A DNA stretch of 64,000 bases from Pseudomonas rubra (GTDB taxonomy: Bacteria; Pseudomonadota; Gammaproteobacteria; Pseudomonadales; Pseudomonadaceae): assembly GCF_028656935.1 (NCBI RefSeq), contig NZ_JAMDGZ010000018.1, positions 62,001-126,000 of the forward strand, in the 5' to 3' direction. Made by a program: the position numbers and the translations under genes. Position 1 is the stretch's first letter. Every line of letters begins with the position of its first letter. Under the pieces are notes generated by a model. The model made no database searches, had not been told where the DNA came from, and saw nothing but the letters and a program-made list of their open reading frames with translations. This document shows positions 14,350 to 38,500 of the stretch, piece by piece.

Positions 14350-15120
14350 TCAGGCGCCGGCCATCCATTTCGACAGGCCATGGCGGCCACTGACCCCCAG
14401 CTTGGCGGTGGCGCGCTTGAGGTAGGTCTCGATCGAACTGGTCTTCAGGTTCAGCCGTTGTGCCAGTTGCGGTACCGTACCGCCGGTCAACAAGCCCATG
14501 CACACTTCCTGTTCGCGGACCGAGAGATTGATCGAACCTTGTGCCAGGCGTTCACCGAAGGCGTGGCGCAAGGAGCCGGCGTCCAGTTCCGTCAGGGCGC
14601 ATCCGGCGCCTTGCTCAAGAAGCTGGCCATGGTGCTCGACCAGCGGCAGCAAGGTGTCGGACAGGCTTTTGAGCTGCGACAGTTCGCTCAGGGAAAAGCC
14701 GCGCTGGCTGGGCAGGCGATGAAAGCAGATCACCCAGCGGCGGTTGCCACTGCGTGAAACCAGGTTGCACTGGTGGGCGCTGTGGGGCTGCTGGCGGGCG
14801 TTGGGCGGGGCCCTGAACTCGATCAGTAGCGGGTCCTTCATTTGCATGATCGATTGCAGCAGCGGGTGGTGCAGGTAGTCCATGCTCGGCAGATCCTGTT
14901 CAAGGCCGGCACTGCCCAGCACCTTGATGCGGCTGACACTGGCCTGGCGCAAGTCCAGGGTCCACTCACTGAGGTCAAGCTTGTGGATCGGCACCTGGGC
15001 ATCGACCAGGCGCAGCATCTGCTGGGCAAAGGCTTGGGCGCCGGTGCTGGCGATCAATTCGCCCAGTTGCAGGTACAACTGCGGGTCGGGGCGGTAGGCG
15101 AGGCTGTCGGTCTGCTTCAT
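14350..15120 (-). CDS. LuxR-family regulator of the lipopeptide locus (upstream regulator)
   Basis: This 256-residue protein has a C-terminal LuxR/GerE helix-turn-helix (about 193-250: LSVREQEVCMGLLTGGTVPQLAQRLNLKTSSIETYLKRA). Its N-terminus is unlike the acyl-homoserine-lactone-binding domain. This type, divergent from the first NRPS gene, is the standard pathway activator of Pseudomonas cyclic lipopeptides. It shares 304 bases of intergenic DNA with the first NRPS gene. The ribosome binding site is embedded in a perfect RsmA/RsmE consensus, so translation is probably held back until the Gac system acts. Its closest relative in the window is the second LuxR gene (61950-62591), especially in the HTH tail (GVSGRHGLSKWM versus GISGRHGLLRWM). 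Confidence 0.92.
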   Translation of the reverse strand: MKQTDSLAYRPDPQLYLQLGELIASTGAQAFAQQMLRLVDAQVPIHKLDLSEWTLDLRQASVSRIKVLGSAGLEQDLPSMDYLHHPLLQSIMQMKDPLLIEFRAPPNARQQPHSAHQCNLVSRSGNRRWVICFHRLPSQRGFSLSELSQLKSLSDTLLPLVEHHGQLLEQGAGCALTELDAGSLRHAFGERLAQGSINLSVREQEVCMGLLTGGTVPQLAQRLNLKTSSIETYLKRATAKLGVSGRHGLSKWMAGA

Positions 15121-15424
15121 ATCCTGGTCATCCTTGAGTCAAAGCATCACGGCGGGTATCTCGCGGTCGAGTTCTCCGAGGGCTGTACGAAGGGTGAGGG
15201 TATTCAAGCCCGCGTGTTGCTGATGCGTCTGTAATGGAAAACAGGGACAGAAAATGCCACTTATTCCTACTCAGGCAATGGCGAATGTTGGCGGATGGCC
15301 AATCTCCTACGCGATTTTCAGCAGCCGTCATCAGGCCTGTGCCTGTCCGGGTTTAAGGGGTCATGCACGCTGGCAGGGCAGTGCTTGAATCGGCAGATGA
15401 TCAACCATCAGGATCCGCCGACCC
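15121..15424. promoter_or_regulatory. Divergent promoter region between luxR and the first NRPS gene
   Basis: This 304-base intergenic stretch holds no credible gene. It must contain the promoters of luxR (left) and of the NRPS operon (right). A small inverted repeat, TTGGC-N5-GCCAA (15288-15302), lies about 120 bases before the NRPS start and is a candidate operator, but short palindromes are common in GC-rich DNA. The NRPS ribosome binding site is AGGA at 15410-15413, within ATCAGGAT, an incomplete Rsm-like motif. No convincing sigma-70 boxes were identified. Confidence 0.5.
15128..15137 (-). promoter_or_regulatory. RsmA/RsmE-type binding site on the luxR ribosome binding site
   Basis: On the minus strand the sequence reads TCAAGGATGA, matching every position of the published consensus (A/U)CANGGANG(U/A). 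The GGA core is the likely Shine-Dalgarno element, 10 bases before the luxR ATG. Occupancy by RsmA/E would block translation. Confidence 0.7.
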
Positions 15425-18400
15425 ATGCCCGCCGCCCACACCTTTGCCCTTACCGCCTCCCAGCGTGACATCTGGCTGGATCAGATCAGCCATGGCGACT
15501 CGCCGCGGTACAACGTTGGCGCCTATGTCGACTTCGACGGTGATATCGATGCCGGTCGGCTACGCCAGGCGCTGGTGCACCTGATGGGCCTGCACGAAAG
15601 CCTGCGCACGGTGCTGGTGGCGCAGGGCGAGGACAACGGTGTGCCGCGCCAGTGTTTTACCGATGCGCTGGCAGTTGACCTGAGCGAGCATGATCTGCGC
15701 GCCAGCCCCGAGCCGTTGGCCGCTGCGCAGGCCTTGATGAAGGCCCGGCTGCAGCGCCCCTATGCGCTGGAGGTGTCACCCTTGTGGGGGACGATGCTGA
15801 TTCGCCTGGCTGAGCGGCGCTACCTGTTTGCCGTGCATACCCACCACCTGATCCTCGACGGCTGGGGGATAGACCAGATGTTCAAGCAGACCGTCGACTG
15901 CTATCGCTTGCTTGAACAGGGCCAACCCTTGCCGGATACGGCGCCGTCCTACCGCGACTTCATCGATGACGACGCCCACTATCAGCAGTCGACGCGTCAG
16001 GCCCGTGATCGTGACTACTGGCTGGCCAAATACAAGCAGTTGCCGGATCCTTTGCTGGCACCTCGCGAGCGTGGCGTATTGGTCCAGGCCGAGCCCACGG
16101 CGGCCCTTGAACTGCCCTTCGATGCCGGGCTGCTGACGCGCATGCGGCAACTGGCGCAGGACCTGCAGGCCTCCGCGTTTCATGTGTTGCTGGCGGCCTT
16201 GCATGTGTGTTGCGCACGTACCTGGCAACGTGACGAGTGGGTGCTCGGCCTGCCGGTGCGCAACCGCAGCAACGCACGGTTCAAGGCAACCATGGGTTTG
16301 TTCAGTCAGGTCAGCGCCTTGCACATGGACTTTGGCCGCAGCCAGTCGTTTGCAGCGCTTGTGCGCGCCATTGGCGACACCCTCAAACAGGACTTTCGTC
16401 ATCAGCGCTTCTCGTTGAGCGACCTGAACCGGGCGCTGGGCGCGCAGCGCGAGGAGCGCTCGCAGCTGTTCGAACTGATGCTGTCCTACGAAGAAGACGA
16501 CAATGAGCTGCGCTTTGGCCAAACGGCCAGCCATTCCGTGATGATCTGCAACGGCCATGGTCCGACGCCCCTGAGTATTCACCTGCGCAGTAACAGTCAC
16601 AGCGCCAAGGCCTGCCTGCACCTGGTTTACAGCCACGCCTGGTTCAGTGCCGAGGAGGTCCAGGCGCTGGCCGAGCGTTTGCTTTGTGTGCTGGAGCAGG
16701 GTTTGCAACGACCGGAACTGAGCATTGCTGCCTTCGACCTGCTGACCGACAGCGAGCACGCACGCTTGCATGCCTGGAACGCCACCTCGGTGCCCGCCGC
16801 GTGCCAGGCGCTGATCCATCGGCGGATCGAGGCTCAGGCGGGGGCCTGGCCGCACGCAGTGGCGGCCCTGCACAACGGCCAGCAACTGAGCTATGGCGAG
16901 TTGAACCGCCGGGCCGATATCCTTGCCCGGCACCTGATCGCTCTGGGCACTCAGCCTGAGCAACGTGTCGCGGTGGTCGCCCGGCGCGGGCTGGACACCC
17001 TGGTTGGCTTGTTGGCGGTGCTCAAGAGCGGCGCTGCTTACGTACCGATCGACCCTGCGCAACCCCGTGAGCGCCTGGCCTACTTGCTCGATGACAGCGC
17101 GCCGCAGGTGGTGCTGACGCAGGCTTCGCTGAGCGAGCGCCTGCCTGCCCATGGTCGGCCACAGATCGAACTCGATTGCTGTGACTGGAGCGAGGCGCTG
17201 GACAGTCGCCTGGTGACGGTGGCCCAGAGCGCCAACAACCTGGCCTATGTCATCTACACCTCAGGCTCCACCGGCGAGCCGAAAGGGGTGATGGTCGAGC
17301 ATCGCATGCTCGCCAACCTGGTCGACTGGAGTTGCAGTGCCTTTGAGCTGGGCCCCGGCCGCCAGCAGTCGTGCCTGGCCGGTTTCGGCTTCGATGCCAT
17401 GGCCTGGGAAGTCTGGCCGGCACTGTGCAGCGGCGCGACCCTGCACCTGGCGCCGGTACGCGACGGCGCCGAGGATATCGAGGCCTTGCTGCGCTGGTGG
17501 CGTGCCCAGCCGCTGGATGTGAGCTTTCTGCCGACGCCGGTGGCTGAGCATGCCTTCGCCCAGGGAGAGTTGCATCCGACCCTGAAAACCTTGCTGGTCG
17601 GCGGTGACCGCCTGCGCCGTCTGGGCCGTGAGCAGCGCTACCGGGTGATCAACAACTACGGCCCCACCGAAGCCACGGTGGTAGCCACTGCCGGGCAGGT
17701 TCAGGCAGGCCAGCCGCTGCATATCGGTGCGCCAGTGGCCAACACCCGTGTCTACGTGCTCGACGGCCAGCATCGGTTGTTGCCAATCGGCGCAGTCGGT
17801 GAGCTCTACATCGGCGGTAGCGGCGTAGCCCGTGGCTATCTGAACCGCCCGCAGCTTACGGCCGAACGCTTTCTCAACGACCCGTTCAGCGACGCTGCCA
17901 ATGCGCGGATGTATCGTACTGGCGACCTGGTGCGCTGGAACGCCGACGGCAACCTGGAATACCTTGGGCGCAACGACGACCAGGTGAAGATCCGTGGCGT
18001 ACGGGTCGAGCTTGCAGAAATCGAGGCGGCCCTGGCTAGCCATCCCCGGGTGCGCGAGTGCGTGGTGCTGCTGCGCAACGGCCAGTTGCAGGCCTGGTTC
18101 ATTGGCGATGCAGCGGCTACCCCGCTGGAGTTGCACGAGCACCTGCGCCAGCGCCTGTCGGCGGCATTGCTGCCGGGTGCCTACACCCACCTGAGGGCCT
18201 GGCCGCTGACCGCCAACGGCAAGCTGGATCGCCGCGCGCTACCTGTGGCCGATGATGCAGCCAAGGTTCGGCGGGTGCATGAGGCGCCGCAGGGTGAGGT
18301 CGAGCAACGCCTGGCGGCCTTGTGGGCCGAGTTGCTGAAGGTCGAACGGGTAGGGCGCCAGGACCATTTCTTCGAACTGGGCGGCCATTCGCTGCTGGCG

Positions 18401-21914: not shown

Positions 21915-23153
21915 ATGCTCTTCAGCGAACTGATGGCTGCGCTCTCCACCCATGCAATCCGACTCCAGCGTGAAGACCAGGACCTGATTGTCCTGGGCGA
22001 TGACGAAACCCTGGACGACAGCCTGTGGGAGGCGCTGTCGCGGCACAAGCCAGCGTTACTGGCCATGCTCGCTGAACAGGATGACGACTGGTTGAGCCCG
22101 GCGTTTCGCATCACCCCGGACATGCTGCCGCTGGTCGACCTCGACCAGGCCGCGATCGACCGTATCGTCGCAAGCGTCCCCGGTGGGGCGGCGAACGTCC
22201 AGGATATCTACCCGCTGGCGCCGCTGCAGCAGGGCATGCTCTACCATCACCTGTCGGCCGACGACGGTGATCCGTACCTGTCGCAAGTGCAACTGCGCTT
22301 TGCCAGCCGCGAGCACCTGGAGGCTTTCGCCGCCGGACTGCAGTGGGTGATCCAGCGTCATGACATTCTGCGTACTGCGCTGCACTGGGAGTGCCTCGAT
22401 TCGCCGGTGCAGGTGGTCTGGCGCGAGGCGCAACTGATGCGCGAGGCCGTTGCCGTGGACGGCGCCGAGGCGCTGGCGCAGTTGTGCCGCCGTTTTGACC
22501 CCCGGCACTACCGCCTGGACCTGCACCAGGCGCCGTTGATGCAACTGATGCACGCCCGTGGCGAAGGTCAGGCGTGGGTGGCATTGCTGTCGTTCCACCA
22601 CACCGTGATGGACCACACTGCGCTTGATATTGTGCGCCGCGAAATTCACGCGCACCTGACCGGCGAGACTGCCCAGCTGGCCGCACCGGTGGCGTTTCGC
22701 AATGTGCTGGCCGAGGCGCGCCTGGCCCTGGATGAGCAAGCCCACGAGAACTTCTTCACCCAGATGCTCGCCGACATCGACGCGCCGACCCTGGCGTTCG
22801 GCCTGCAGGACAAGGGCGATCAGGCGCTGGAAGAGGCGCGCCTTACCCTTGCACCGTCGCTCAGCCGCCGCCTGCGCGAGCAGGCGCGGCAACTGGGGGT
22901 GAGCCCGGCAAGTGTGCTGCACCTGGGCTTCGCCCGCCTGCTGGGGCAATTGTCGGCCCGCCAGAACGTGGTATTCGGCAGCGTGCTGCTGGGGCGCATG
23001 AGCGCCGGCGCGCATGAGCGCCGGCGCCGGTGGCGACCAGGCGTTGGGCATGTTCATCAATACCCTGCCGCTGCGCGTCGACCTGGGCCAGCACGGCGCA
23101 CGCGATGCCCTGCTGGCGACCCACCGGCGGCTCAGCACCTTGCTCGGCCATGA
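21915..23153 (+). CDS. NRPS 2 fragment 1: docking domain and most of C3
   Basis: This open frame has 412 residues. Residues 1-55 form a TubC-type docking domain (MLFSELMAALSTHAIRLQRE). C3 begins at about 60-95 ([25 protein letters not shown]) and its active-site motif is HHTVMDH near 228. Sequence is normal through GSVLLGRMSAGA (about 365) and then turns into an Arg/Pro-rich nonsense tail (HERRRRWRPG...) because of the 16-bp duplication. The stop at 23153 lies within what should be C3. A natural truncated product of this kind has no expected activity. Confidence 0.8.
   Translation: MLFSELMAALSTHAIRLQREDQDLIVLGDDETLDDSLWEALSRHKPALLAMLAEQDDDWLSPAFRITPDMLPLVDLDQAAIDRIVASVPGGAANVQDIYPLAPLQQGMLYHHLSADDGDPYLSQVQLRFASREHLEAFAAGLQWVIQRHDILRTALHWECLDSPVQVVWREAQLMREAVAVDGAEALAQLCRRFDPRHYRLDLHQAPLMQLMHARGEGQAWVALLSFHHTVMDHTALDIVRREIHAHLTGETAQLAAPVAFRNVLAEARLALDEQAHENFFTQMLADIDAPTLAFGLQDKGDQALEEARLTLAPSLSRRLREQARQLGVSPASVLHLGFARLLGQLSARQNVVFGSVLLGRMSAGAHERRRRWRPGVGHVHQYPAAARRPGPARRTRCPAGDPPAAQHLARP
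22995..23026 (+). repeat. Exact 16-bp tandem duplication causing a frameshift
   Basis: The unit CGCATGAGCGCCGGCG occurs at 22995-23010 and again at 23011-23026 with no gap. The homologous site in C5 (around 29264-29290) has the unit once, followed directly by the CCGG(C/T)GGCGACC continuation. Sixteen extra bases shift the frame by +1. Removing either copy restores the conserved protein sequence GRMSAGAGGD. Confidence 0.95.
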
Positions 23154-26100
23154 ACAGGCCTCGTTGGCACTGGCCCAGCGTTGCAGCGCCGTCGCGGCGC
23201 CGACGCCGCTGTTCAACAGTTTGCTCAACTACCGCCATAGCGCTGTCGGCGATGCCGCCGAGATCATCCCGGTGGCACCGGGCATCGATATCGTCGGGGC
23301 CCAGGAGCGCACCGACTATCCCTTGACCGTGAGCGTCGATGACCTGGGCGAAGACTTCCGGCTGAGCGTGCAAGCGCTCGCCGAATGGGGCGCCCAGCGC
23401 CTCTGTGAGTTGCTGGAGCAGACATTGGCCAGCCTGGTCGAGGCCCTGGAACACACGCCTTCGCTGGCCACTCAGGCGCTTGTAGTCCTGCCGGCACAAG
23501 AGCGTGAGCGGCTTGTGCACGATTTCAATGCCACGGCCCAGGCTTACGCGCAGGGGCGCACCGTGCATGCCTTGGTTGAGGACCAGGCGCGCCGTGCCCC
23601 CGAGGCCGTGGCGCTGACCCAGGATGGCCTGGCCCTGAGCTATGGCGAGCTGAACCGGCGTGCCAACCGCCTGGCCCACGGCTTGATCGCACGCGGTGTG
23701 CAACGGGGCGACCGGGTCGCCCTGTGCCTGCCGCGCAGCGCCGAGCGGGTCATTGGCCTGCTGGCCGTGCTCAAGGCCGGTGCTGCCTATGTGCCGGTGG
23801 ACCCGAACTACCCGGCCGAACGTATCGCCTACCTGCTGGCCGACAGCGCACCGAGCCTGGTGCTGGCCGATTCGCGCATCGCCGGGTTGGCGAGCAACGT
23901 GCCACGCCTCGACCTCGACCAGCCGGGCGCCTACCACCAGGCCGATACCAATCCGCAGGTGCCAGGGCTCAATGCGCAGCAACTGGCCTACGTGGTCTAC
24001 ACCTCTGGTTCTACCGGCCAGCCCAAGGGCGTGATGATTGAACACCATGCCCTGGCCAATCTGGTGCACTGGCATTGCCAGGCCTTCGACGTGGCGGCCG
24101 GTACGCACACCTCAAGCGTTGCAGGCTTTGGTTTCGACGCCATGGCCTGGGAAGTCTGGCCAGCGTTGTGCGCCGGCGCCACGTTGCACCTGCCGCCTGT
24201 GCACATCGGCAACGAGCATGTCGATGAGCTGCTTGACTGGTGGCTGGAACAACCACTGGCGGTCAGCTTCCTGCCCACGCCGGTGGCCGAGCAGGCCTTG
24301 CGCCGCGAACATCAACATCCAACGCTACGCACCTTGCTGATCGGCGGCGACCGCCTGCGCCAGTTCGAGCGTGATCCAGGCTTTGCCGTGATCAACAACT
24401 ACGGCCCGACCGAGACCACAGTGGTTGCCACTTCCGGACGCGTAATGCCGAACGGCGCGCTGGATATCGGCCGCCCCATTGCCAATACCCGCGTATATGT
24501 TCTCGACGAGGGCCTGCAGCCGGTACCAGTAGGTGTCACGGGCGAGCTGTACATCGGCGGCGCGCAGGTAGCGCGGGGCTACCTGAACCGCCCCGAACTG
24601 ACGGCAGAGCGTTTCCTCGACGACCCGTTCAGCGATGCACCGGGCGCACGCATGTACCGCAGCGGCGACCTGGTGCGCTGGAATGCCGACGGCACCCTGG
24701 ACTATCTGGGCCGTAACGATGATCAGGTGAAAATCCGCGGCGTGCGGGTCGAGCTGGGCGAGGTCGAGGCGGCACTGGCTGTGCAGCCGGGCATTGGCGA
24801 CGCTGTGGCACTGGTGCGCGGCGAGCGGCTGCTGGCCTGGTTTACCGAAACCGCGCCGGTCGACCTTGATTCGCTACGCCATGCCCTGCAAGCCAAGCTG
24901 CCGGCGCACCTGGTGCCGCAAGCATTTATGCGCCTGGAACAGTGGCCGCTGACCAGCCACGGCAAGTTGGACCGCCGCGCGCTGCCGGACCCGGACCCGA
25001 TGGCGCTGATCAGTCAGGTGTATGAAGCGCCGCAAAACGATGCCGAAGCCACCATGGCGGCGGTGTGGGCCGAGGTGCTGGGCGTTGAGCGGGTAGGGCG
25101 TCACGACAACTTCTTCGAGCTGGGTGGCCACTCGCTGTTGGCGGTGACCCTGGTCGAGCGCCTGCGCAAGGCTGGCCTGGTCATTGATGTGCGGGTACTG
25201 TTCGCCCAACCGACCCTGGCCGCGCTTGCCGGTGCGGCTGGCGGCAGCCGCGAGGTGGCGGTGCCGGCCAACCGGGTGCCGGACAATGCCGAGCGCATCA
25301 CTCCGGACATGCTCAGCCTGATCGAGCTGAGCCAGGCCGATATCGAACGCATCGTTGCCACAGTGCCGGGCGGTGCTGGCAACGTGCAGGAGATCTACCC
25401 GCTGGCGCCCCTGCAGGAAGGCGTGCTCTATCATCACCTGAGTGCCGAGCACGGCGACCCCTACCTGTTGCAGACCCGCCTGGCCTTCGACAGCGTCGAG
25501 CGCTTGCTGGCCTGGGCCGGTGCCTTGCAGCAAGTGATCGATCGCCATGACATTCTGCGCACCGCAGTGCTCTGGAAAGGGCTGGCACAGCCGGTTCAGG
25601 TGGTCTGGCGCAACGCCGAGCTGGCCGTGATCGAAACCGACACGCTGCCGGACGAGCCGAGCCTGGACCTGTCCCAGGCACCGCTCACGCGCCTGTACTA
25701 CAGCCTGGACCCGGCCAACCATCAGGTGCTGGCGATCCTGCTGTTCCATCACCTGACCCTCGATCACACCGCCATGGACGTGGTCGCCGGCGAAATGCGC
25801 GCGCTGCTGTTCGGCCAGGCGCAGACCCTGCCGGCCGCCGTGCCTTATCGCAACTATGTGGCCCAGGCGTGCCTGGGCGATCAGGCGGGCCACGAAGCGT
25901 TCTTCCGTGAAATGCTTGGCGACGTCGATGAGCCGACCTTGCCGCTGGGCCTTGCCGATGTGCAGGGCGACGGTCGCAGCATCGACACTGCTTTTCAGGC
26001 GCTCGACGTCGAAGTTGGCCTGCGCCTGCGCAGCCAGGCGCGTCAGCTCGGGGTCAGCGCCGCGAGCCTGATGCACCTGGCCTGGGCGCGTGTGCTCGGG

Positions 26101-29100
26101 GTACTTGCCAACCGTCGCGACGTGGTCTTCGGCACCGTGCTGATGGGCCGTCTGCAAGGCGGCGAAGGCGCCGACCGCGCGCTGGGCATGTTCATCAATA
26201 CCTTGCCGTTGCGGGTCGATACCGGGGCCGCAGTGCGCTCGGCGGTACGCGCGACCCACCGCAGCCTGTCGGCATTGCTCGGCCACGAGCACGCGCCCCT
26301 GGCCCTGGCCCAGCGCTGCAGCGGCGTGGCGGTGTCCTCGCCGCTGTTCAGCGCCTTGCTCAACTACCGCCACACTGCCGACGATGCGCCGCGCGAGGGT
26401 GAGGGCATCTGGGCGGGCGTGCGCCTGCTCGGTGGCCAAGAGCGCAGCAACTACCCACTGACCCTGAGCGTTAACGACCTGGGTAAAGGTTTCAGCTTCA
26501 ACGTACTGGCGGTGCCAGGTATTGGCGCGCAGCGGGTGGCCCAGTGGATGGCCAATGCTGTGGTTCAACTGCTGCAGGTATTGGAGCAGGGGCTGGAGAC
26601 GGCAGTCGATGGCTTGCCGATCCTCGCTGGCGCTGAACGCCGGCAATTGCTGGAAAACTTCAACCCAACGGCTCAGGTATTCCCCAAGGGGCACACCGTG
26701 CACGCCTTGGTCGAAGCCCAGGCTCTGCGTGCCCCCGAGGCCGTGGCATTGACCCAGGATGGCCTGGCCCTGAGCTACGGCGAGCTGAACCGGCGCGCCA
26801 ACCGCCTGGCCCACGGCTTGATCGCACGCGGTGTGCAACGGGGCGACCGGGTCGCCCTGTGCCTGCCGCGCAGCGCCGAGCGGATAATCGGCTTGCTGGC
26901 CGTGCTCAAAGCCGGTGCTGCCTACGTGCCGGTGGACCCGAACTACCCGGCCGAACGTATCGCCTACCTGCTGGCCGACAGTGCGCCGAGCCTGGTGCTG
27001 GCCGATTCGAGTATCGAAGGGTTGGCGGCCAGCGTGCCGCGGCTCGACCTCGACCAGCTGGGCGCCTACCACCCGGCCGATGACAACCCGCAGGTGCCAG
27101 GGCTCAACGCACAGCAGTTGGCCTACGTGGTCTACACCTCCGGCTCCACTGGCCAGCCCAAGGGCGTGATGATCGAGCACCATGCCCTGGCCAACCTGGT
27201 GCACTGGCATTGCCAGGCCTTCGACGTGGCGGCCGGCACGCACACCGCAAGCGTCGCAGGCTTTGGCTTCGACGCCATGGCCTGGGAAGTCTGGCCAGCG
27301 CTGTGCGCCGGGGCCACGTTGCACCTGCCGCCTGTGCACATCGGCAACGAGCATGTCGATGAACTGCTCGACTGGTGGCTAGCACAACCACTGGCCGTCA
27401 GCTTCCTGCCCACGCCGGTGGCCGAGCAGGCCCTGCGCCGCGAGCGTCAGCATCCGACCCTGCGGACTCTGTTGATCGGCGGTGATCGTCTGCGTCAGTT
27501 CGAACGCGATCCAGGCTTTGCCGTGATCAACAACTACGGCCCGACCGAGACCACAGTGGTTGCCACTTCTGGCCAAATCCTGGCCAATGGTGAACTGCAT
27601 ATTGGCCGGCCCATCGCCAACACCCGCGTGTATGTCCTCGACGAGAGCCTGCAACCGGTACCAGTAGGTGTCACGGGCGAGCTGTACATCGGCGGCGTGC
27701 AGGTGGCGCGGGGTTACCTGAACCGCCCCGAACTGACGGCAGAGCGTTTCCTCGACGACCCGTTCAGCGATGCACCGGGCGCACGCATGTACCGCAGCGG
27801 CGACCTGGTACGCTGGAATGCCGACGGCACCCTGGACTATCTGGGCCGCAACGACGATCAGGTGAAGATCCGTGGTGTGCGGGTTGAATTGGGCGAGATC
27901 GAGGCGGCCCTGGCCGCGCAACCGAGCATTGACGACGCTGTGGTACTGGTACGCGGCGAGTGGCTGCTGGCCTGGTTTACCGAAACTGCGCCGGTCGACC
28001 TCAATTCGCTACGCCAGGCCCTGCAAGCCAAGCTGCCAGCGCATTTGGTGCCGCAGGCGTTCGTGCGCCTGGAGCAGTGGCCGCTGACCAGCCACGGTAA
28101 GCTGGACCGCCGCGCACTACCGGACCCGGACCCGACGGCGCTGCTTGGCCAGGTGTATGAAGCGCCGCAAAATGATGTCGAAGTGACCATGGCAGCGGTG
28201 TGGGCCGAGGTGCTGGGGGTCGAGCGGGTAGGGCGTCACGACAACTTCTTCGAACTGGGCGGTCATTCGCTGCTGGCCGTGACCCTGATCGAACGCCTGC
28301 GTCAGCAAGAGCTGCCCACCGATGTGCGGGTGCTTTTCAACCAACCGACTGTCGCTGCGCTGGCGGCGGCGCTGGGCCAGGGGCGTCAGGTCGTGGTACC
28401 GGAGAACCGTATCCCGGCCGCGTGCTCACACATTACCCCCGACATGTTGCCGCTGGTGACGCTGAGCCAGGCCGATATCGATCGAATCGTCGCCACGGTG
28501 CCGGGCGGTGCTGCCAACGTACAGGACATATACCCGTTGGCGCCGTTGCAGGAAGGCATCCTCTATCACCACCTGAGCGCCCTCGGCGACGACCCCTACC
28601 TGCTGCAATGGCGTCTGGCCTTTGACAGCCAGGCGCGTCTGCACGCCTTCGCCAGCGCCCTGGACCAGGTCATCGCCCGCCATGACATCCTGCGTACCGC
28701 CGTGCTCTGGGACAGCCTGCCACAACCGCTGCAAGTGGTCCTGCGCAACGTCCCCTCAGTGGTGAGCGCGGGCGCGGTACTAGACCTGAGCACCGCCCCC
28801 CTGATCCGCCTGCTCTACACCCAAGCCACCAGTGCTTCGCAGATCGAAGCCACCCTGCAGTTCCACCACATCGCGCTTGACCAAACCGCCATGAAGGTCG
28901 TGCTCGAAGAGATCCGCGACCACCTGCATGGCCAGACGCCGCAACATCCGCCGGTGCCGTTCCGCAACTATGTGGCCCAGACGCGCCTGGGCGATCAGGC
29001 CAGCCACGAAGCGTTCTTCCGTGAAATGCTCGGCGACGTCGATGAGCCGACCTTGCCGCTGGGCTTTGCCGATATACAGGGCGATGGCCGCAGCATCGAC

Positions 29101-32100
29101 ACTGCGCACCAGGTCCTCGACGGCGAAGTCGGCCTGCGCCTGCGCAGCCAGGCACGTCAGCTCGGGGTCAGCGCCGCGAGCCTGATGCACCTGGCCTGGG
29201 CGCGGGTGCTCGGCGTACTTGCCAACCGGCGCGACGTAGTCTTCGGCAGCGTTCTACTGGGACGCATGAGCGCCGGCGCCGGCGGCGACCGGGCGCTGGG
29301 CATGTTCATCAATACCTTGCCGTTGCGGGTCGACACCGGGGCCTGCGCGCGGGAGGCAGTACACGCGACCCACCGCAGCCTGTCGGCATTGCTCGGCCAC
29401 GAGCATGCGCCCCTGACCCTGGCCCAGCGCTGCAGCGGCGTGGCAGTGTCCTCGCCGCTGTTCAGCGCCTTGCTCAACTACCGCCACAGTGCCGACGATG
29501 CGCCGCGCGAGGGTGAAGGCATCTTGGCGGGTGTGCACCTGCTGGGTGGGCAAGAGCGTAGCAACTACCCGCTGACCCTGAGTGTGAACGACCAGGGTAA
29601 AGGCTTCAGCTTCAGCGTACTGGCGGTACCGGGTATTGGTGCGCAACGGGTGGCCCGGTGGATGGCCAATGCTGTGGTCCAACTGCTGCTGGTGCTGGAG
29701 CAGGGGCTGGAGACTGCGGTCGATTGCCTGCCGATCCTCGATGGCGATGAACGCCGGCAACTGCTGGAGAATTTCAACCCAACAGCCCAGGCATTCCCCA
29801 AGGGGCACACCGTGCACGCCTTGGTCGAGGCCCAGGCCCTGCGTGCCCCCGAGGCCGTGGCGCTGACCCAGGACGGCCTGGCCCTGAGCTATGGCGAGTT
29901 GAACCGGCGCGCCAACCGCCTGGCCCATGGCCTGATCGAGCGCGGTGTGCAATTGGGCGACCGGGTTGCCCTGTGCCTGCCGCGCAGCGCCGAGCGGGTC
30001 ATCGGCCTGCTGGCGGTGCTCAAGGCCGGTGCTGCCTATGTGCCTGTGGACCCGAACTACCCGGCCGAACGTATCGCCTACCTGCTTGCCGACAGCGCAC
30101 CCACCCTGGTGCTGGCCGATTCGTGCATCGACGGGCTGGCGAACAATGTGCCACGCCTCGACCTCGACCAGCCGGGCGCCTACCACCAGGCCGATACCAA
30201 TCCGCAGGTGCCAGGGCTCAATGCGCAGCAACTGGCCTACGTGGTCTACACCTCCGGTTCCACCGGCCAGCCAAAGGGCGTGATGATCGAACACCATGCC
30301 CTGGCCAACCTGGTGCACTGGCATTGCCAGGCGTTTGAAGTGACGGCCGGCACGCACACCGCAAGCGTCGCAGGCTTTGGCTTCGACGCCATGGCCTGGG
30401 AAGTCTGGCCGGCGTTGTGCGCTGGGGCCACATTGCACCTGCCGCCTGTGCACATCGGCAACGAGCATGTCGATGAACTGCTCGACTGGTGGCTGGAACA
30501 ACCACTGGCGGTCAGTTTCCTGCCCACGCCGGTGGCCGAGCAGGCCCTGCGCCGCGAACGTCAGCATCCGACCCTGCGGATTCTGTTGATCGGTGGTGAT
30601 CGCCTGCGCCAGTTCGAGCGCGATCCGGGCTTTGCCGTGATCAACAACTACGGCCCGACCGAAACCACAGTAGTCGCCACTTCTGGCCAGATCCTGGCCA
30701 ATGGTCCACTGCATATTGGCCGCCCCATCGCCAACACCCGCGTGTATGTCCTCGACGAGGGCCTGCAACCGGTGCCGGTGGGTGTCACGGGCGAGCTGTA
30801 CATCGGCGGCGCACAGGTGGCGCGGGGCTACCTGAACCGCCCCGAACTGACGGCAGAGCGTTTCCTCGACGACCCGTTCAGCGATGCACCGGGCGCACGC
30901 ATGTACCGCAGCGGCGACCTGGTGCGCTGGAATGCCGACGGCACCCTGGACTATCTGGGCCGTAACGATGATCAGGTGAAAATCCGCGGCGTGCGGGTCG
31001 AGCTGGGTGAGATCGAGGCGGCACTGGCTGTGCAGCCGGGCATTGGCGACGCTGTGGCACTGGTGCGCGGCGAGCGGCTGCTGGCCTGGTTTACCGAAAC
31101 CGCGCCGGTCGACCTTGATTCGCTACGCCATGCCCTGCAAGCCAAGCTGCCGGCGCACCTGGTGCCGCAAGCATTTATGCGCCTGGAACAGTGGCCGCTA
31201 ACCAGCCACGGCAAGCTGGACCGCCGCGCGCTGCCGGATCCAGACCCGGCGGCGCTGCTTGGTCAGGCCTATGAAGCACCGCAAAACGATGCCGAAGCGA
31301 CCATGGCGGCGGTGTGGGCCGAGGTGCTGGGTGTCGAGCGGGTAGGGCGTCACGATAATTTCTTCGAACTGGGCGGCCATTCGCTGCTGGCCGTCAGCCT
31401 GACCGCGCGCCTGCGCCTGGAAGGTTTGCAAATCGATGTGCGTACCCTGTTTGGCCAGCCGACCGTGGCCGCACTGGCCGCAACCCTGGGTAATGATCGT
31501 CAGGTGACGGTGCCCGAGAACCGTATCCCTGACGCCTGTACCCGGATCACCCCGGACATGCTCAGCCTGATCGAACTCGACCAGACGGCCATTGCCCGTA
31601 TTGTCGCCAGCGTTGCTGGCGGCGCCGCCAACATCCAGGACATCTACCCGCTGGCACCGCTGCAGGAAGGCGTTCTTTATCACCACCTGCGTGCGCCGGA
31701 GCACGATCCCTATGTGCTCTACTCGCGGCTGAAATTCGACAGCCTGGAACGTCTGCAGCGCTTTGCCGCAGCCCTGGACCGGGTCATCGCCCGCCATGAC
31801 GTGCTGCGCACCGTAGTGCTCTGGGACAGCCTGCCGCAACCGCTGCAAGTGGTCCTGCGCAATGTCCCTTCAGTAGTGGAATCAGGCTTGGTGGGAGCGG
31901 GCTTGCCCCGCGATAGCTCCACCTCGCCAATGGACCTGAGCACCGCCCCCCTGATCCGTCTGTTCCACACCCAGGTTCCCGGCGCCACACACATCGAAGC
32001 CACCCTGCAGTTCCACCACATTGTCCTCGACCATACCGCCCTGGAGGTGGTCGGCGAGGAACTCAATGCTTACCTGCAGGGCGCCGCAGCACCGGCACAT

Positions 32101-32553
32101 GCCCCGGTGCCTTACCGCAACTATGTGGCCCAGGCGCGCCTGGGTATCAGCCAGGCCGAGCATGAGGCCTTCTTCCGCGAGCAACTGGCCGACATCGATG
32201 AACCGACCCTGGCCTATGGGTTGAGCGATGTCCAAGGCGATGGCTGCAACTTACAGGAAGTGAAGGTGCAACTGTCGACCGAGCTTGCCGCGGGCCTGCG
32301 CCGCCAGGCGCGGCAGCTGGGCATCAGCGTCGCTAGCCTGTTTCACCTGGCCTGGGCGCGCCTGCTGGGTGCGGCCAGCGGCAAGCACAGCGTGGTCTTC
32401 GGCACCGTGCTGCTCGGTCGCCTGCAAGGTGGCGAGGGCGCCGAACGGGCGCTGGGCATGTTCATCAACACCTTGCCGTTGCGGGTCGACCTGGCAGGGG
32501 TAAGCCTGTATGACGCGGCCCATGCACCCACCAGCGCCTCAGCGCGCTGCTGA
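23014..32553 (+). CDS. NRPS 2 fragment 2: end of C3, then A3-T3, C4-A4-T4, C5-A5-T5, start of C6
   Basis: This frame carries 3179 residues from [20 protein letters not shown]. The ATG at 23014 is the second copy of the ATG inside the duplicated 16 bp and has no Shine-Dalgarno sequence, so independent translation is doubtful. Landmarks by nucleotide: A3 core near 24130, T3 near 25111, C4 HHLTLDH near 25748, A4 core near 27268, T4 near 28247, C5 HHIALDQ near 28863, A5 core near 30380, T5 near 31361, C6 HHIVLDH near 32016. All three A domains read DAWFLGNVVK (Leu) and are near-copies of each other. C6 contains a translated REP element (31886-31920). The frame ends in nonsense ([14 protein letters not shown]) after a missing base at about 32525. 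Confidence 0.85.
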   Translation: MSAGAGGDQALGMFINTLPLRVDLGQHGARDALLATHRRLSTLLGHEQASLALAQRCSAVAAPTPLFNSLLNYRHSAVGDAAEIIPVAPGIDIVGAQERTDYPLTVSVDDLGEDFRLSVQALAEWGAQRLCELLEQTLASLVEALEHTPSLATQALVVLPAQERERLVHDFNATAQAYAQGRTVHALVEDQARRAPEAVALTQDGLALSYGELNRRANRLAHGLIARGVQRGDRVALCLPRSAERVIGLLAVLKAGAAYVPVDPNYPAERIAYLLADSAPSLVLADSRIAGLASNVPRLDLDQPGAYHQADTNPQVPGLNAQQLAYVVYTSGSTGQPKGVMIEHHALANLVHWHCQAFDVAAGTHTSSVAGFGFDAMAWEVWPALCAGATLHLPPVHIGNEHVDELLDWWLEQPLAVSFLPTPVAEQALRREHQHPTLRTLLIGGDRLRQFERDPGFAVINNYGPTETTVVATSGRVMPNGALDIGRPIANTRVYVLDEGLQPVPVGVTGELYIGGAQVARGYLNRPELTAERFLDDPFSDAPGARMYRSGDLVRWNADGTLDYLGRNDDQVKIRGVRVELGEVEAALAVQPGIGDAVALVRGERLLAWFTETAPVDLDSLRHALQAKLPAHLVPQAFMRLEQWPLTSHGKLDRRALPDPDPMALISQVYEAPQNDAEATMAAVWAEVLGVERVGRHDNFFELGGHSLLAVTLVERLRKAGLVIDVRVLFAQPTLAALAGAAGGSREVAVPANRVPDNAERITPDMLSLIELSQADIERIVATVPGGAGNVQEIYPLAPLQEGVLYHHLSAEHGDPYLLQTRLAFDSVERLLAWAGALQQVIDRHDILRTAVLWKGLAQPVQVVWRNAELAVIETDTLPDEPSLDLSQAPLTRLYYSLDPANHQVLAILLFHHLTLDHTAMDVVAGEMRALLFGQAQTLPAAVPYRNYVAQACLGDQAGHEAFFREMLGDVDEPTLPLGLADVQGDGRSIDTAFQALDVEVGLRLRSQARQLGVSAASLMHLAWARVLGVLANRRDVVFGTVLMGRLQGGEGADRALGMFINTLPLRVDTGAAVRSAVRATHRSLSALLGHEHAPLALAQRCSGVAVSSPLFSALLNYRHTADDAPREGEGIWAGVRLLGGQERSNYPLTLSVNDLGKGFSFNVLAVPGIGAQRVAQWMANAVVQLLQVLEQGLETAVDGLPILAGAERRQLLENFNPTAQVFPKGHTVHALVEAQALRAPEAVALTQDGLALSYGELNRRANRLAHGLIARGVQRGDRVALCLPRSAERIIGLLAVLKAGAAYVPVDPNYPAERIAYLLADSAPSLVLADSSIEGLAASVPRLDLDQLGAYHPADDNPQVPGLNAQQLAYVVYTSGSTGQPKGVMIEHHALANLVHWHCQAFDVAAGTHTASVAGFGFDAMAWEVWPALCAGATLHLPPVHIGNEHVDELLDWWLAQPLAVSFLPTPVAEQALRRERQHPTLRTLLIGGDRLRQFERDPGFAVINNYGPTETTVVATSGQILANGELHIGRPIANTRVYVLDESLQPVPVGVTGELYIGGVQVARGYLNRPELTAERFLDDPFSDAPGARMYRSGDLVRWNADGTLDYLGRNDDQVKIRGVRVELGEIEAALAAQPSIDDAVVLVRGEWLLAWFTETAPVDLNSLRQALQAKLPAHLVPQAFVRLEQWPLTSHGKLDRRALPDPDPTALLGQVYEAPQNDVEVTMAAVWAEVLGVERVGRHDNFFELGGHSLLAVTLIERLRQQELPTDVRVLFNQPTVAALAAALGQGRQVVVPENRIPAACSHITPDMLPLVTLSQADIDRIVATVPGGAANVQDIYPLAPLQEGILYHHLSALGDDPYLLQWRLAFDSQARLHAFASALDQVIARHDILRTAVLWDSLPQPLQVVLRNVPSVVSAGAVLDLSTAPLIRLLYTQATSASQIEATLQFHHIALDQTAMKVVLEEIRDHLHGQTPQHPPVPFRNYVAQTRLGDQASHEAFFREMLGDVDEPTLPLGFADIQGDGRSIDTAHQVLDGEVGLRLRSQARQLGVSAASLMHLAWARVLGVLANRRDVVFGSVLLGRMSAGAGGDRALGMFINTLPLRVDTGACAREAVHATHRSLSALLGHEHAPLTLAQRCSGVAVSSPLFSALLNYRHSADDAPREGEGILAGVHLLGGQERSNYPLTLSVNDQGKGFSFSVLAVPGIGAQRVARWMANAVVQLLLVLEQGLETAVDCLPILDGDERRQLLENFNPTAQAFPKGHTVHALVEAQALRAPEAVALTQDGLALSYGELNRRANRLAHGLIERGVQLGDRVALCLPRSAERVIGLLAVLKAGAAYVPVDPNYPAERIAYLLADSAPTLVLADSCIDGLANNVPRLDLDQPGAYHQADTNPQVPGLNAQQLAYVVYTSGSTGQPKGVMIEHHALANLVHWHCQAFEVTAGTHTASVAGFGFDAMAWEVWPALCAGATLHLPPVHIGNEHVDELLDWWLEQPLAVSFLPTPVAEQALRRERQHPTLRILLIGGDRLRQFERDPGFAVINNYGPTETTVVATSGQILANGPLHIGRPIANTRVYVLDEGLQPVPVGVTGELYIGGAQVARGYLNRPELTAERFLDDPFSDAPGARMYRSGDLVRWNADGTLDYLGRNDDQVKIRGVRVELGEIEAALAVQPGIGDAVALVRGERLLAWFTETAPVDLDSLRHALQAKLPAHLVPQAFMRLEQWPLTSHGKLDRRALPDPDPAALLGQAYEAPQNDAEATMAAVWAEVLGVERVGRHDNFFELGGHSLLAVSLTARLRLEGLQIDVRTLFGQPTVAALAATLGNDRQVTVPENRIPDACTRITPDMLSLIELDQTAIARIVASVAGGAANIQDIYPLAPLQEGVLYHHLRAPEHDPYVLYSRLKFDSLERLQRFAAALDRVIARHDVLRTVVLWDSLPQPLQVVLRNVPSVVESGLVGAGLPRDSSTSPMDLSTAPLIRLFHTQVPGATHIEATLQFHHIVLDHTALEVVGEELNAYLQGAAAPAHAPVPYRNYVAQARLGISQAEHEAFFREQLADIDEPTLAYGLSDVQGDGCNLQEVKVQLSTELAAGLRRQARQLGISVASLFHLAWARLLGAASGKHSVVFGTVLLGRLQGGEGAERALGMFINTLPLRVDLAGVSLYDAAHAPTSASARC
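23560..31480 (+). repeat. Three near-identical tandem Leu modules (A-T-C units of about 3.1 kb)
   Basis: The same sequence (ACCGTGCA(T/C)GCCTTGGT) begins A3 at 23560, A4 at 26695 and A5 at 29809, giving unit lengths of 3135 and 3114 bases. Long stretches of A and T sequence are identical or differ at scattered third positions. This is tandem duplication with homogenisation, and it also makes the region hard to assemble from short reads. Confidence 0.85.
31886..31920 (+). repeat. REP element inside the C6 coding sequence
   Basis: The sequence GTGGGAGCGGGCTTGCCCCG followed by CGATAGC (31891-31917) matches the common Pseudomonas REP palindrome, here translated in frame as LVGAGLPRDSS. It replaces a short variable loop between VVLRNVPSV and MDLSTAPLIRL. 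The C5 counterpart is about 12 residues shorter. REPs normally lie between genes. Confidence 0.8.
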
Positions 32554-35500
32554 CCCATGAGCACGCCTCGCTGGCCCTGGCCCAGCGTTGCAGCGGCGTT
32601 GCTGCGCCGCTGCCGCTGTTCAGCGCCATGCTCAACTACCGCCATGGCGCACTGGCCAGCGCAGAACAGCGCCAGGCCTGGCAGGGCATCGAGGTACTCG
32701 AGGGCCAGGAGCGGACCAACTATCCCCTGAGCCTTAACGTGGACGATCTGGGCGAAGATTTCCGCCTGGTGGCCATGACCCCTGCACAGGTGGGCGCGGC
32801 GCGGATCTGCGCGCAGATGGTCCAGGTGCTCGAGGCCATGGTCACGGCCCTGGAGCAGCAACCGCAGTTGCCGGTGCAGCAACTACCGGTGCTCGAGGCA
32901 GCAGAACGGCGCCGGGTTTTGCTGGCCTTCAACAACACTGAGGTGAACTACGACCTCAGACAGACCCTGCACGGTCTGATCGAGGCCCAGGTCGAGCGCA
33001 CCCCGGACGCCGTGGCGGTGCGTGGTGAAGAAGGCGAGCTGAGCTATTGCCAGCTCAACCAGCAGGCCAACCGTCTGGCCCATCACCTGATCGGTTTGGG
33101 GGTCAAACCCGATGACCGTGTAGCGATTTGCGTTGAACGCGGGTTGTCGATGGTGGTGGGGCTGTTGGCGATTCTCAAGGCCGGTGCGGCCTATGTGCCG
33201 GTGGACCCGGATTATCCGGCTGAGCGGATCCGTCACATGCTCGGTGACAGCGCGCCTGTGGCTGTCCTCGTACAGGCGGCCACATGTCATGTAGCGCAAG
33301 GCACTGCGGTCATTGATCTGGACCTGCCGACCTGGCATGAACTGCCAGAAAGTAACCCACGCGTCGAAGGCCTGACCGCCAAACATCTGGCTTATGTGAT
33401 CTACACCTCCGGCTCGACCGGCTTGCCTAAAGGCGTGATGAACGAGCATGCCGGCGTGGTCAACCGCCTGCTGTGGATGCAGGACGCCTATCACCTGGGC
33501 GCCGATGACGTGGTGCTGCAAAAGACCCCGTTCAGCTTCGACGTTTCGGTCTGGGAATTCCTCTGGCCGCTGCAAACCGGGGCCCGGTTGGTCATGGCCC
33601 GCCCCGGCGGCCATCGCGACCCGCAGTATCTGCGCGAGATTATCCGCAACCAAGGGGTCACTACTTTGCACTTCGTGCCGTCGATGCTGGATGTGTTCCT
33701 GGCGGACGGCCAGGTAGCAGCTGAGCGTCTGAAGCGGGTGCTGTGCAGTGGCGAAGCCTTGCCGGGTAGCCTGGTGCGGCGTTTCCATGAGCAATTGCCA
33801 ACGGTCGAGTTGCACAACCTCTACGGCCCAACGGAAGCTGCGGTGGACGTCAGTGCCTGGCAGTGCATCAGCGCAGCGGACAGCACGCCAATCGGCAAGC
33901 CGATCGCCAACACCACCTTGTATGTGCTGGATGATCAACTGCAGCCGGTACCTCAGGGCGTGGCTGGCGAGTTGTATATCGGTGGCGTGCAGGTTGCCCG
34001 TGGCTACTTGAACCGCGACGAACTCAGCGCCGAGCGCTTTATCGATGACCCGTTTGGCACCCGGCCCGGCGCCCGGCTGTACCGCACCGGTGACCTGGCC
34101 CGGCACTTGGCCGACGGCAATCTGGAGTACCTGGGCCGTAACGATGACCAGGTGAAAATCCGTGGCCTGCGCATCGAGCTGGGCGAAATTCAGGCCGGCC
34201 TGACCCGCCTGCCGGGCATCAAGGAAGCCGTGGTGATCGCCCGCGAGCAGCGCTTGATTGGCTATTACACCGGCGAACAACAGCCGGTAGAAACCTTGCG
34301 TGGCGCACTGCTCGCGCACCTGCCGGAGTTCATGGTGCCAGCGTTGTTCATGCATCTGGACGCATTGCCGCTAAGCCCCAACGGCAAGCTAGACCGCAAG
34401 GCATTGCCACAAGCAGATATCGAAAACCGCGCCTTCGAGGCCCCCGAGGGCGAGACCGAAACCCTGCTGGCCGGCCTCTGGAGCGATCTGCTGGGGGTGG
34501 AGCGAGTAGGGCGCCACGACAACTTCTTCGAACTGGGCGGCCATTCGCTGCTGGCGGTGAGCCTGACCTCGCGCTTGCGCCAGCTCGGCCTGCAGGCCGA
34601 TATACGCGTACTGTTCGGGCAACCGACCCTTGCGGCCCTGGCGGCAGCGGTGGGGCGCGAGTCCGGGGTGCAGGTCCCGGCCAATCGCATCCCGGCGCAC
34701 TGCACGCAAATTACCCCGGACATGCTGCCATTGGCCGACCTGTCCCAGGAGGCCCTCGATGGCCTGATGGCACAGATCCCCGGTGGCGTGGCCAATGTCC
34801 AGGACATCTACGCCCTGGCGCCATTGCAACAGGGCATCCTATACCACCACTTGGCCAGCGACGGCGCCGACCCCTACGTGCTGCAGGCGCGCTTCGCCTT
34901 TGCCGGGCAGGCCGAGCTGGATGCCTTTGCTGCGGCCCTGGACCGGGTCATCGCACACCACGACATATTGCGCACCAGCTTCCATTGGCAAGGCCTGGAC
35001 GAAGCCGTGCAAGTGGTCCAGCGCAACGTCCCCTCGGTAGGAGAGGCCTTGCGCCGCGATCAATACCCTGCGGTCCTGAACCTCAACCAGGCGCCGCTGA
35101 TCCGCCTGCTGCCAACCCAGGCCAACGGCCGTCTTGAGGCAACGTTGCTGCTGCACCACATCATCCTTGACCACGCCGCCGTCGAGCAGTTGGTGGCGCA
35201 CATCAGCGCGGTGCTGCAAGGTCAGGCTCTGCCCGACGACAGCGTGCCTTACCGCAACTACGTGGCCCAGGCCCGCCTGGGTGCCAATACTCAAGCGGAT
35301 GAAGCCCTGTTCCGCGAACTGTTGGGCGACATCGACGAGCCCACCGAGGTGTTCGGCCTGCGCGACGCCCAGGGTGACGGCACGGCGGTGCTCGACAGCC
35401 GCCAGGCCCTGGCGCCAAGCCTGGCCAGGCGCTTGCGTGCCCAGGCGCGCAAGCTGGGTGTCAGCCTTGCCAGCCTGGTGCACCAGGCTTGGGGCCAGGT

Positions 35501-38500
35501 GCTGGGGCAACTGTCCGGGCGCGAGGAAGTGGTGTTCGGCACGGTGCTGCTCGGCCGCCTGCAGGGCGGCGAAGGGGCTGAACGCGCCTTGGGCATGTTC
35601 ATCAACACCTTGCCATTGCGGGTCAGCGTCGGCGCTGCCGCAGTGGCCGAGGGTGTGCGCCTGACCCATCAGCGCCTGGCCCGCTTGCTGGCCCGTGAAC
35701 AGGCCTCCCTGGCTCTGGCCCAGCGCTGCAGCGGTGTAGCCGCCTCGCAGCCACTGTTCACCAGCCTGCTCAACTTTCGCCACAGCGCGCCGGCCAAGGC
35801 GCCACTGCACGAGGCTTGGCAAGGCATCGAACAACTGAGCGCGCACGAGCGCAGCCACTACCCTCTGGTGGTCAACGTTGACGACCTGGGCGAGGGGCTG
35901 GTCCTTACCGTCCAGGCCGTAGCCAAGGTGGATGGCGAACAGGTCTGTCAGTTGCTGGGCTGCGCGCTCGACAACCTGGCACGGGCCCTTGAACAGGCCC
36001 CCGACACGGCCCTGCACGGCATCAGTTGCTTGGCGCCGGATGAGCGTGAACGGGTGTTGCAGGGCTTCAACGCTACCCAGCGCGACTACCCGCGCGAGCA
36101 TGCCCTGCACACGCTGTTCGAGGCATACGCCGCGCTCAGCCCCGACGCCACGGCAGTGGTTCAGGGCTCGGTGCAGTGGAGTTACCAGCAGTTGGATCAG
36201 CACGCCAACCGCTTGGCGCATTATCTGTTGGCGCTGGGCGTGCGCCCCGGTGATTGCATTGCGCTGCTGTTGCCACGCGGTGTCGACCTGCTGGCCGCGC
36301 AACTGGCCGCGAGCAAATGTGCAGCGGTGTACGTGCCGCTGGATATCAACGCACCGGTCGAACGTCAGGCGTTCATGCTCCAGGACAGCCAGGCACGGGT
36401 GCTGCTGACCCACAGTGGCGAGCCGCAGGTTGGCGCAACGCAACGCATCGAACTCGACGGCCTTGTACTCGACGGCTATCGGCACACCTCGCCGGGCCTG
36501 ATGGTCGAGGCTGGCAGAGCGGCATACATCATGTACACCTCCGGTTCCACCGGCACGCCCAAAGGCGTGCAAGTGCCGCACCGGGCCATCGTGCGCCTGG
36601 TGATCAACAACGGCTTCGCCGATTTCAACAGCCAGGACCGGGTAGCCTTCGCCTCCAACCCGGCCTTCGACGCCAGCACCCTGGAAGTCTGGGCGGCGCT
36701 GCTCAATGGCGGCGCCCTGGTGGTGATCGATCAGGACCAGGTGCTGTCGTGTCAGGAGCTGGGCGCTGCCCTGATTGAGCACAGGGTCTCGGTGCTGTGG
36801 CTGACGGCCGGTCTGTTCCATCAATTCGCCGATGCCCTGTTGCCGGCACTGCGTAACCTGCGCTACCTGCTGGTCGGCGGCGATGTTCTCGACCCTGCGG
36901 TGATCGAGCGTGTACTGCGCGGCGGTGCCCCGGCGCATCTGCTCAATGGCTACGGCCCGACCGAAGCCACCACCTTCAGCACCACCCACGAAATCACCGC
37001 AGTGGGCGCGGGCAGCATCCCCATCGGCAAGCCGATCGGCAACAGTCGCTGTTATGTCCTCGATGCCCACCAGCAAGCGCTGCCGGTGGGCGCCGTGGGC
37101 GAGCTGTACATCGGCGGCGAGGGGGTTGCCCTGGGTTATCTGGGCCAGCCGCAACTGAGCGCTGAGCGTTTCCTCGATGATCCTTTCAGTGCCGAGCCCG
37201 GTGCGCGCATGTACCGCAGCGGCGATCGGGTGTGCTGGCAGGCGGACGGCACCTTGCTCTACCTGGGCCGTAGCGACCAGCAGATCAAACTGCGCGGGTT
37301 CCGTATCGAGTTGGGCGAGATCGAAGCCCGCCTTGGTGCGTGCCAGGGGGTAGGCGAAGTGGCCGTGGTGCTGCGCGAGGACACGCCGGGCGACAAGCGC
37401 CTGGTGGCCTACTACAGCGCCGTTGACGGCACGCTGAGCATCAACGAACTGCATGCCCAGTTGCAAGGACAGTTGCCGGACTACATGCTGCCGGCGGCTT
37501 ATGTGCGCCTGGCCGCGCTGCCGCTTACCGCCAATGGCAAGCTTGACCGCCAGGCGCTGCCGCAGCCAGACAGGGATGCCGTGCTCAGCCGGACGTTCGA
37601 GGCGCCCCAAGGCGAGGTGGAAACCGCACTGGCGGCGATCTGGGCAGAGCTGCTCAAGGTTGAACGCATCGGTCGCCATGATCATTTCTTCGAGCTGGGC
37701 GGCCACTCACTGCTGGCGGTTACTTTGATCGAGCGCATGCGCAAGGCCGGCTTGAGCGCCGACGTACGCGTGCTGTTCGCCCAGTCGAGCCTGGCGGCGC
37801 TGGCGGCGGCAGTTGGCAGCAGCCGTGAAGTGCAGGTGCCCGCCAACCGCGTGCCGGTCGATGCCCGGCACATCACCCCGGCCATGCTCAGCCTGATCGA
37901 GCTGGACCAGGCCAGCATCGAACGCATCGTCGCCACGGTGCCGGGCGGGGCGGCCAACGTGCAGGAGATCTACCCGCTGGCACCGCTGCAGCAAGGCATC
38001 CTTTATCACCACCTGAGTGCCGAGCAGGGCGACCCTTACCTGCTGCAGTCACGTCTGGCATTCGACAGCCTGGCGCGCCTGCACACCTGGGCCGCAGCCT
38101 TGCAGCAGGTTATCGACCGCCATGACATCCTGCGTACGGCGGTACTCAGCGAAGGCCTGGTGCAGCCGGTACAGGTGGTCTGGCGCACGGCGCGCATGGC
38201 CGTGACAGCCGTCGCCGGGCTCAGCGGTGCTTCAGTCGTCGATGCCCTGCAGGCGCGCTTCGATGCCCGCCACCAGCGCCTGGACCTGTCGCGTGCGCCG
38301 CTGATGCGCCTGGTGTACGCCGAAGATCCGACCAACCAGCGCGTGGTGGCGATCCTGCAGTTCCATCACCTGGCCATCGACCACACCGCCATGGCAGTGA
38401 TCGCTGGCGAAATGCAGGCACTGTTGGCAGGCAACGCCCAGCGACTGGCGCCGCCGGTGCCGTACCGCACCTACGTGGCCCAGGCCCGGTTGGCTGCGGA

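Follow-up and report, generated by a model that had tools for sequence, protein, structure and literature searches.

The Pseudomonas rubra cluster described here appears to be one more lipopeptide cluster under probable direct Gac/Rsm translational control, exerted via both of its LuxR-type regulators. The window, which is the whole stretch of 64,000 nt that was analysed, carries on its minus strand at 15128-15137 a decamer that is very probably a functional RsmA/RsmE operator in the leader of the luxR1 mRNA, where bound protein would occlude the ribosome-binding site. The second regulator gene, luxR2, also carries a strict site, and both cluster regulators are therefore probable Rsm targets. 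The mechanism itself is established already and the P. rubra locus is probably a further case of it. The case for an Rsm site rests on position and conservation and not on the decamer itself. The features of the window to which we refer are the following:

14350-15120, minus strand: luxR1, encoding a 256-aa LuxR-type regulator with GerE as its sole Pfam match; transcribed divergently from the first NRPS gene (NRPS1)
15122-15124, minus strand: second GGA, 1 nt 5' of the luxR1 ATG; not a full consensus
15128-15137, minus strand: RsmA/E consensus site TCAAGGATGA, strict; its GGA (15131-15133) is the likely luxR1 Shine-Dalgarno sequence
15425-58735, plus strand: NRPS genes of a cyclic-lipopeptide-type cluster, with 13 A-domain stretches
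58594-61934, plus strand: macA/macB-type export genes (pleA/pleB of lipopeptide clusters), the macA start being that of the ORF finder
61950-62591, minus strand: luxR2, the second LuxR-type regulator gene; convergent with macB
62596-62605, minus strand: second strict RsmA/E consensus TCATGGATGA, the likely luxR2 Shine-Dalgarno sequence, with 7 nt from GGA to ATG

Read along the minus strand, positions 15137-15128 are TCAAGGATGA, followed by CCAGGAT and then by the ATG at 15120-15118 with which luxR1 is predicted to start, a start codon that is backed by the alignment of homologues. A preliminary description of this DNA had proposed a perfect RsmA/E consensus on the first luxR gene, with GGA as its likely Shine-Dalgarno sequence, and both points are borne out: TCAAGGATGA matches WCANGGANGW at 10 of 10 positions (the RsmA/RsmE consensus is quoted as A/U-CANGGANG-U/A in the part of PMC4353343 used here), and the motif overlaps the ribosome-binding site AAGGA, whose GGA at 15133-15131 lies 10 nt 5' of the ATG at 15120. 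The second GGA, close to the ATG, is also found in some homologue leaders. GerE, the LuxR-type DNA-binding domain, is the only Pfam match of the luxR1 reading frame at E <= 0.001; it is C-terminal and unaccompanied by an autoinducer-binding domain, and with the divergent orientation relative to the first NRPS gene this makes the product a LuxR1-type lipopeptide regulator. The divergent arrangement of luxR1 and NRPS1 recurs in every one of the 89 loci whose NRPS1 start could be used. At the other end of the cluster, the luxR gene at 61950-62591 (minus strand) follows macB at 59925-61934 (plus strand) in the opposite direction, which is the luxR2-type layout. Its start was placed at 62591 by homologue alignment and Shine-Dalgarno spacing, and not at the ORF-finder start of 62603; TCATGGATGA, read from 62605 to 62596 on the minus strand, stops 4 nt short of that ATG. 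The preliminary description is silent on this second site, and its overall reading is partly supported, being right in kind and incomplete in scope, with a mechanism that was already known.

That Gac/Rsm control of lipopeptide LuxR regulators is established in other pseudomonads, as had also been stated beforehand, agrees with what is reported in the parts used here of PMC13187841, PMC4353343 and PMC5635164. Like the P. rubra cluster, the orfamide cluster of P. protegens Pf-5 has two LuxR-type genes beside it, each with an Rsm GGA site, and an NRPS operon that does not appear to be a direct Rsm target (PMC13187841, in part). In that 2026 study, EMSA and MST assays showed RsmA and RsmE to bind the leaders of luxR1 and luxR2, a change of the GGA abolished binding and regulation, the latter followed with GGA-mutant GFP fusions, and the leader of the ofa operon, described there as lacking GGA, was unbound by Rsm; LuxR2 activates luxR1, and LuxR1 activates ofaABC (PMC13187841, in part). 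The control is thus proven in Pf-5, whereas the P. rubra case is known from sequence alone, and the NRPS1 leader of P. rubra differs from the ofa leader in that it does contain GGA, outside any consensus. In a 2024 review, the finding that Gac/Rsm directly controls the translation of orfR1 and orfR2 is attributed to Sobrero et al. 2017 (PMC10928948, in part). In P. fluorescens (lactis) SS101, massAR was put forward in 2014 as a predicted Rsm target on the strength of sRNA and rsmA/rsmE mutants together with the motif, and similar motifs were aligned for other lipopeptide luxR genes; the site has the same consensus as in P. rubra and sits likewise in the ribosome-binding site of a luxR gene, here upstream of massA, although the lipopeptide made by SS101 is massetolide (relevant part of PMC4353343). 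In Pseudomonas sp. CMR12a, Rsm sites upstream of ofaR1, ofaR2 and sesR were found in 2017 by motif search only, and the alignment also took in the sites of further producers, P. putida PCL1445 and P. entomophila L48 among them; here too the sites precede luxR genes at the borders of lipopeptide clusters, although the clusters differ (PMC5635164, in part). The divergence of luxR1 from the first NRPS gene is shared with xtlR of the xantholysin system in P. putida BW11M1, where, unlike in P. rubra, the cluster is split and luxR2 is absent downstream of xtlBC; the portion of that paper used here makes no mention of Rsm control (PMC3656897).

The genome of P. rubra itself encodes a GacA-family regulator that scores above its curated cut-off, three CsrA-family genes, RsmY and RsmZ, and the presence of these components, like the motif, its position and its conservation, is observed in our own data. 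With GacS/GacA inactive, RsmA/E dimers would occupy the GGA, which doubles as the ribosome-binding site, and LuxR1 translation would be blocked, as would that of LuxR2 through its own site; with GacA active, RsmY and RsmZ would titrate the Rsm proteins, LuxR2 and LuxR1 would be made, and LuxR1 would activate the divergent NRPS operon. For binding, repression, the LuxR2-to-LuxR1 order and activation of the operon, we infer from work on P. protegens and P. fluorescens.

The conservation of the two sites was examined in a sample of 298 genomes drawn from the genus Pseudomonas, 134 of which have luxR1 matches (E <= 0.001, weak ones counted). For luxR1, 110 loci, our own included, were taken among the matches listed and 104 were kept, six being left out for a called start more than 12 nt off (L161, L168, L171, L174, L175 and L181); for luxR2, 30 loci, again with our own, were taken from a longer list of matches. 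Both sets were also thinned to leaders that differ by at least 35% over positions -60 to -21. Among these listed matches, the P. rubra locus counted, the strict consensus is present in 66 of 104 luxR1 leaders (27 of 45 after thinning) and CANGGANG in 83 of 104; for the luxR2 loci from the longer list, again with ours, the figures are 29 of 30 and, thinned, 21 of 22. As a control, 575 starts of open reading frames of at least 150 aa were sampled from 0.8 Mb of the P. rubra genome, the starts here and in the homologue leaders being picked by a simple Shine-Dalgarno-and-ATG rule and not by a gene finder; only 2 of the 575 have the strict consensus within 30 nt, and it occurs in 2 of the 241 sampled starts that have both ATG and GGA. 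Fisher tests of the thinned sets against 2/575 give 5e-33 for luxR1 and 2e-35 for luxR2, values which are indications only, as the rows are still related. The NRPS1 leaders, which serve as a same-locus control, are strict in just 7 of 89 cases even though GGA is present in 85 of 89. On conservation across homologues, a functional Rsm site is much more likely than a chance fit. In eight loci that include P. capeferrum WCS358, P. vlassakiae, P. reidholzensis and P. wayambapalatensis, 7 of 8 luxR1 leaders and 8 of 8 luxR2 leaders are strict, with duplicates in the set (the leader of L229 is that of L007, and the leader of L247 that of L067).

The luxR1 site is less well conserved in the nearest homologues and in the remotest ones. 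Of the seven rows with at least 70% identity, our own included, three are strict, while the other four deviate at one position (two rows) or at two (two rows); 3-5 mismatches are seen in 6 of the 24 rows with 60-70% identity and in 8 of the 9 with less than 50%, so that the site is not universal. The pattern of substitution in the thinned luxR2 leaders is informative: both W positions and the C, G, G, A and G are invariant in all 22 rows, the A before N is kept in 21 of them, every one of the four bases occurs at the N before GGA, and T or C stands at the N that follows it. G directly after GGA, which is found in 51% of the Shine-Dalgarno sequences of the P. rubra genome (n=241), occurs in 2 of 45 luxR1 and 0 of 22 luxR2 leaders (thinned sets). 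Because the flanks are fixed while the N positions vary, and because G after GGA is avoided, these leaders seem to have been selected for more than ribosome binding, and such selection beyond the Shine-Dalgarno role across the homologue set supports the earlier proposal that this control is general among lipopeptide producers.

The same counts bear on the possibility, which we regard as unlikely and which is compatible with a functional luxR1 operator, that Rsm binds but that luxR1 is a minor target, the main control passing via luxR2 or, in some relatives, via the NRPS1 mRNA. The higher share of strict luxR2 leaders (29/30 vs 66/104, in a luxR2 set that is smaller and less diverged), the strict site in 7 of 89 NRPS1 leaders and the activation of luxR1 by LuxR2 in P. 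protegens (PMC13187841, in part) favour it; the NRPS1 leader in the window is without the consensus, however, and in the P. protegens luxR1 fusion a change of the GGA abolished Rsm control (same source).

The preliminary description had also held that the luxR1 site would gate the whole 43-kb operon post-transcriptionally. The first NRPS gene, at 15425, is a two-module gene whose leader in the window, ATCAGGATCC, contains GGA, and a scan of that leader for the Rsm consensus found none; a direct gate is thus not upheld, and the operon would be gated indirectly, by way of LuxR1. The gated product may itself be non-functional: the middle NRPS gene is broken up into three plus-strand open reading frames (21915-23153, 23014-32553 and 32628-44231), the frame changes from each of them to the next, and the first covers just part of a condensation domain. 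It seems doubtful to us, though, that the cluster is decaying and that the operator, intact and idle, is a relic. The counterpart of the middle NRPS gene in a relative (G143) is one open frame over two adjoining stretches, which together with the split favours decay; against it, the assembly is a draft of 104 contigs, so that the break may be an assembly error as well as a real one, and NRPS1, the last NRPS gene, macA, macB, luxR1 and luxR2 are all open in the window.

The decamer by itself is not clearly above chance, because the degenerate consensus has 826 matches in the genome compared with 782 for the reversed pattern used as control. The exact sequence TCAAGGATGA occurs twice in the 64,000-nt window, where 0.04 copies are expected, the other copy lying at 35161-35170 (minus strand), antisense within an NRPS gene. 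All six matches to the degenerate consensus in the window are on the minus strand, and those away from the luxR starts are at 12948, within a sense open reading frame, and at 25901, 29015 and 35161, antisense in NRPS genes. With an ATG required 1-10 nt downstream, the genome has 151 matches vs 72 for the reversed control, an excess that partly reflects the likeness of the consensus to a Shine-Dalgarno sequence. It is nevertheless highly improbable that the decamer is an ordinary Shine-Dalgarno sequence (AAGGA) whose match to the Rsm consensus is accidental, with no Rsm protein acting: the overlap in content, the slight genomic enrichment, the loss of strict positions in some near homologues and the groups without the site speak for that view, but the flanking C, A, G and W are kept across diverged leaders while the N positions vary, G after GGA is avoided, unlike in the control Shine-Dalgarno sequences, and the site is on both luxR genes of the cluster.

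The probable operators on luxR1 and luxR2 may have a wider bearing on clusters described as lacking luxR2. Xantholysin and entolysin clusters are described as lacking luxR2, all such clusters being of the P. putida group and the reason being left unexplained in the part of the 2024 review used here (PMC10928948), and the corresponding part of PMC3656897 states that xtlBC has no viscBCR-like gene downstream of it. We compared the position of the lipopeptide-type macB (83-89% identity) with that of the luxR2 orthologue in 18 genomes. The two are less than 1 kb apart in 11 of the 18 and about 3 kb apart in one (G305, P. wayambapalatensis RW3S1); in the remaining six, luxR2 lies 40-551 kb from macB (G103, G109, G126, G101 and G189) or the two are on separate contigs (G173). 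The leaders of these six displaced luxR2 genes are all strict for the Rsm site. The loci that bear on the displaced luxR2 are these:

L068, L071, L072, L073, L074, L075; L234, L236, L237, L238

In all four of the six whose luxR2 surroundings were retrieved (G103, G109, G189 and G101), a helicase gene and an inositol monophosphatase gene are found near luxR2, and the inositol monophosphatase gene adjoins luxR2 also in G199 and G133, both of which have macB beside luxR2; these common surroundings suggest that luxR2 stayed in place and that the NRPS and transporter genes moved. The seven loci with a strict site on the NRPS1 leader (L009, L010, L012, L013, L015, L016 and L020) belong to the six displaced-luxR2 genomes and G199, a hint that in this subgroup of seven genomes the synthetase mRNA may itself be under direct Rsm control. 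The xtlR cloning primer printed in PMC3656897 (consulted in part) contains TCAAGGAAGA, a strict consensus, and the luxR1 leader of G173 (L013) matches that primer, so that G173 is probably a xantholysin-type genome. We infer, in one case from the primer match, that the six are xantholysin-, entolysin- or WLIP-type producers. It is conceivable, and we put it forward tentatively as something short of an even chance, that some P. putida-group clusters taken to be without luxR2 (those for xantholysin and entolysin and certain ones for WLIP) have kept the gene elsewhere, next to an inositol monophosphatase gene and with a strict Rsm site, and that a two-tier LuxR2-LuxR1 cascade, twice gated by Rsm, may be general. 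Our reserve has two grounds. In G109, luxR2 has NRPS-like sequence about 7 kb away and may thus still border a lipopeptide operon on its other flank; in the P. rubra window, luxR2 stands next to a LysR gene and not to the phosphatase gene. No printed account of a displaced luxR2 was found in the literature covered, which was mostly without subscription journals. A displaced luxR2 would be a testable explanation for the apparent absence of the gene from some clusters of the P. putida group, which the part of PMC10928948 used here leaves unexplained.

The remaining observations concern the luxR1 leader itself. Structural work on CsrA and RsmE has the GGA presented in the loop of a hairpin. A conserved hairpin that presents the luxR1 GGA was considered and finds no clear support in the P. 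rubra leader: the fold of the leader has a z-score of 0.78, with no stable local hairpin around the motif, and the mean unpaired probability of the P. rubra luxR1 GGA, 0.34, equals the control median of 0.34. Across the luxR1 leaders the median is 0.51 (n=104, related rows) vs 0.34 in the control (n=255), and across the luxR2 leaders it is 0.41 (n=30, p 0.06, related rows), the P. rubra luxR2 value being 0.68; the more open GGAs of the luxR1 set are given no weight, since the rows are related and our own luxR1 site is ordinary. A tiny upstream reading frame (ATG in GGATGA, 4 codons, its stop overlapping the luxR1 start) is treated as incidental, because leaders with GGAAGA, which are without that ATG, keep similar spacing as read off the alignment. 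Scans of 15080-15460 for a sigma-70 promoter, by consensus, and for terminators found none, and Rfam gave no match at gathering score over the whole window. In close relatives GGAG-ACTCGACCGCGAG is conserved in the luxR1 leader at about 15160-15177 (minus strand), some 40-57 nt 5' of the ATG; it was weighed as a second Rsm site or a hairpin, and its arms are without covariation by eye. Further 5' of luxR1, at about 15201-15258 (minus strand), the same close relatives share a conserved block, GGCATTTTCTGTCCC...CCATTACAGACGC and CTTGAATA, which is possibly a promoter or a regulator site.
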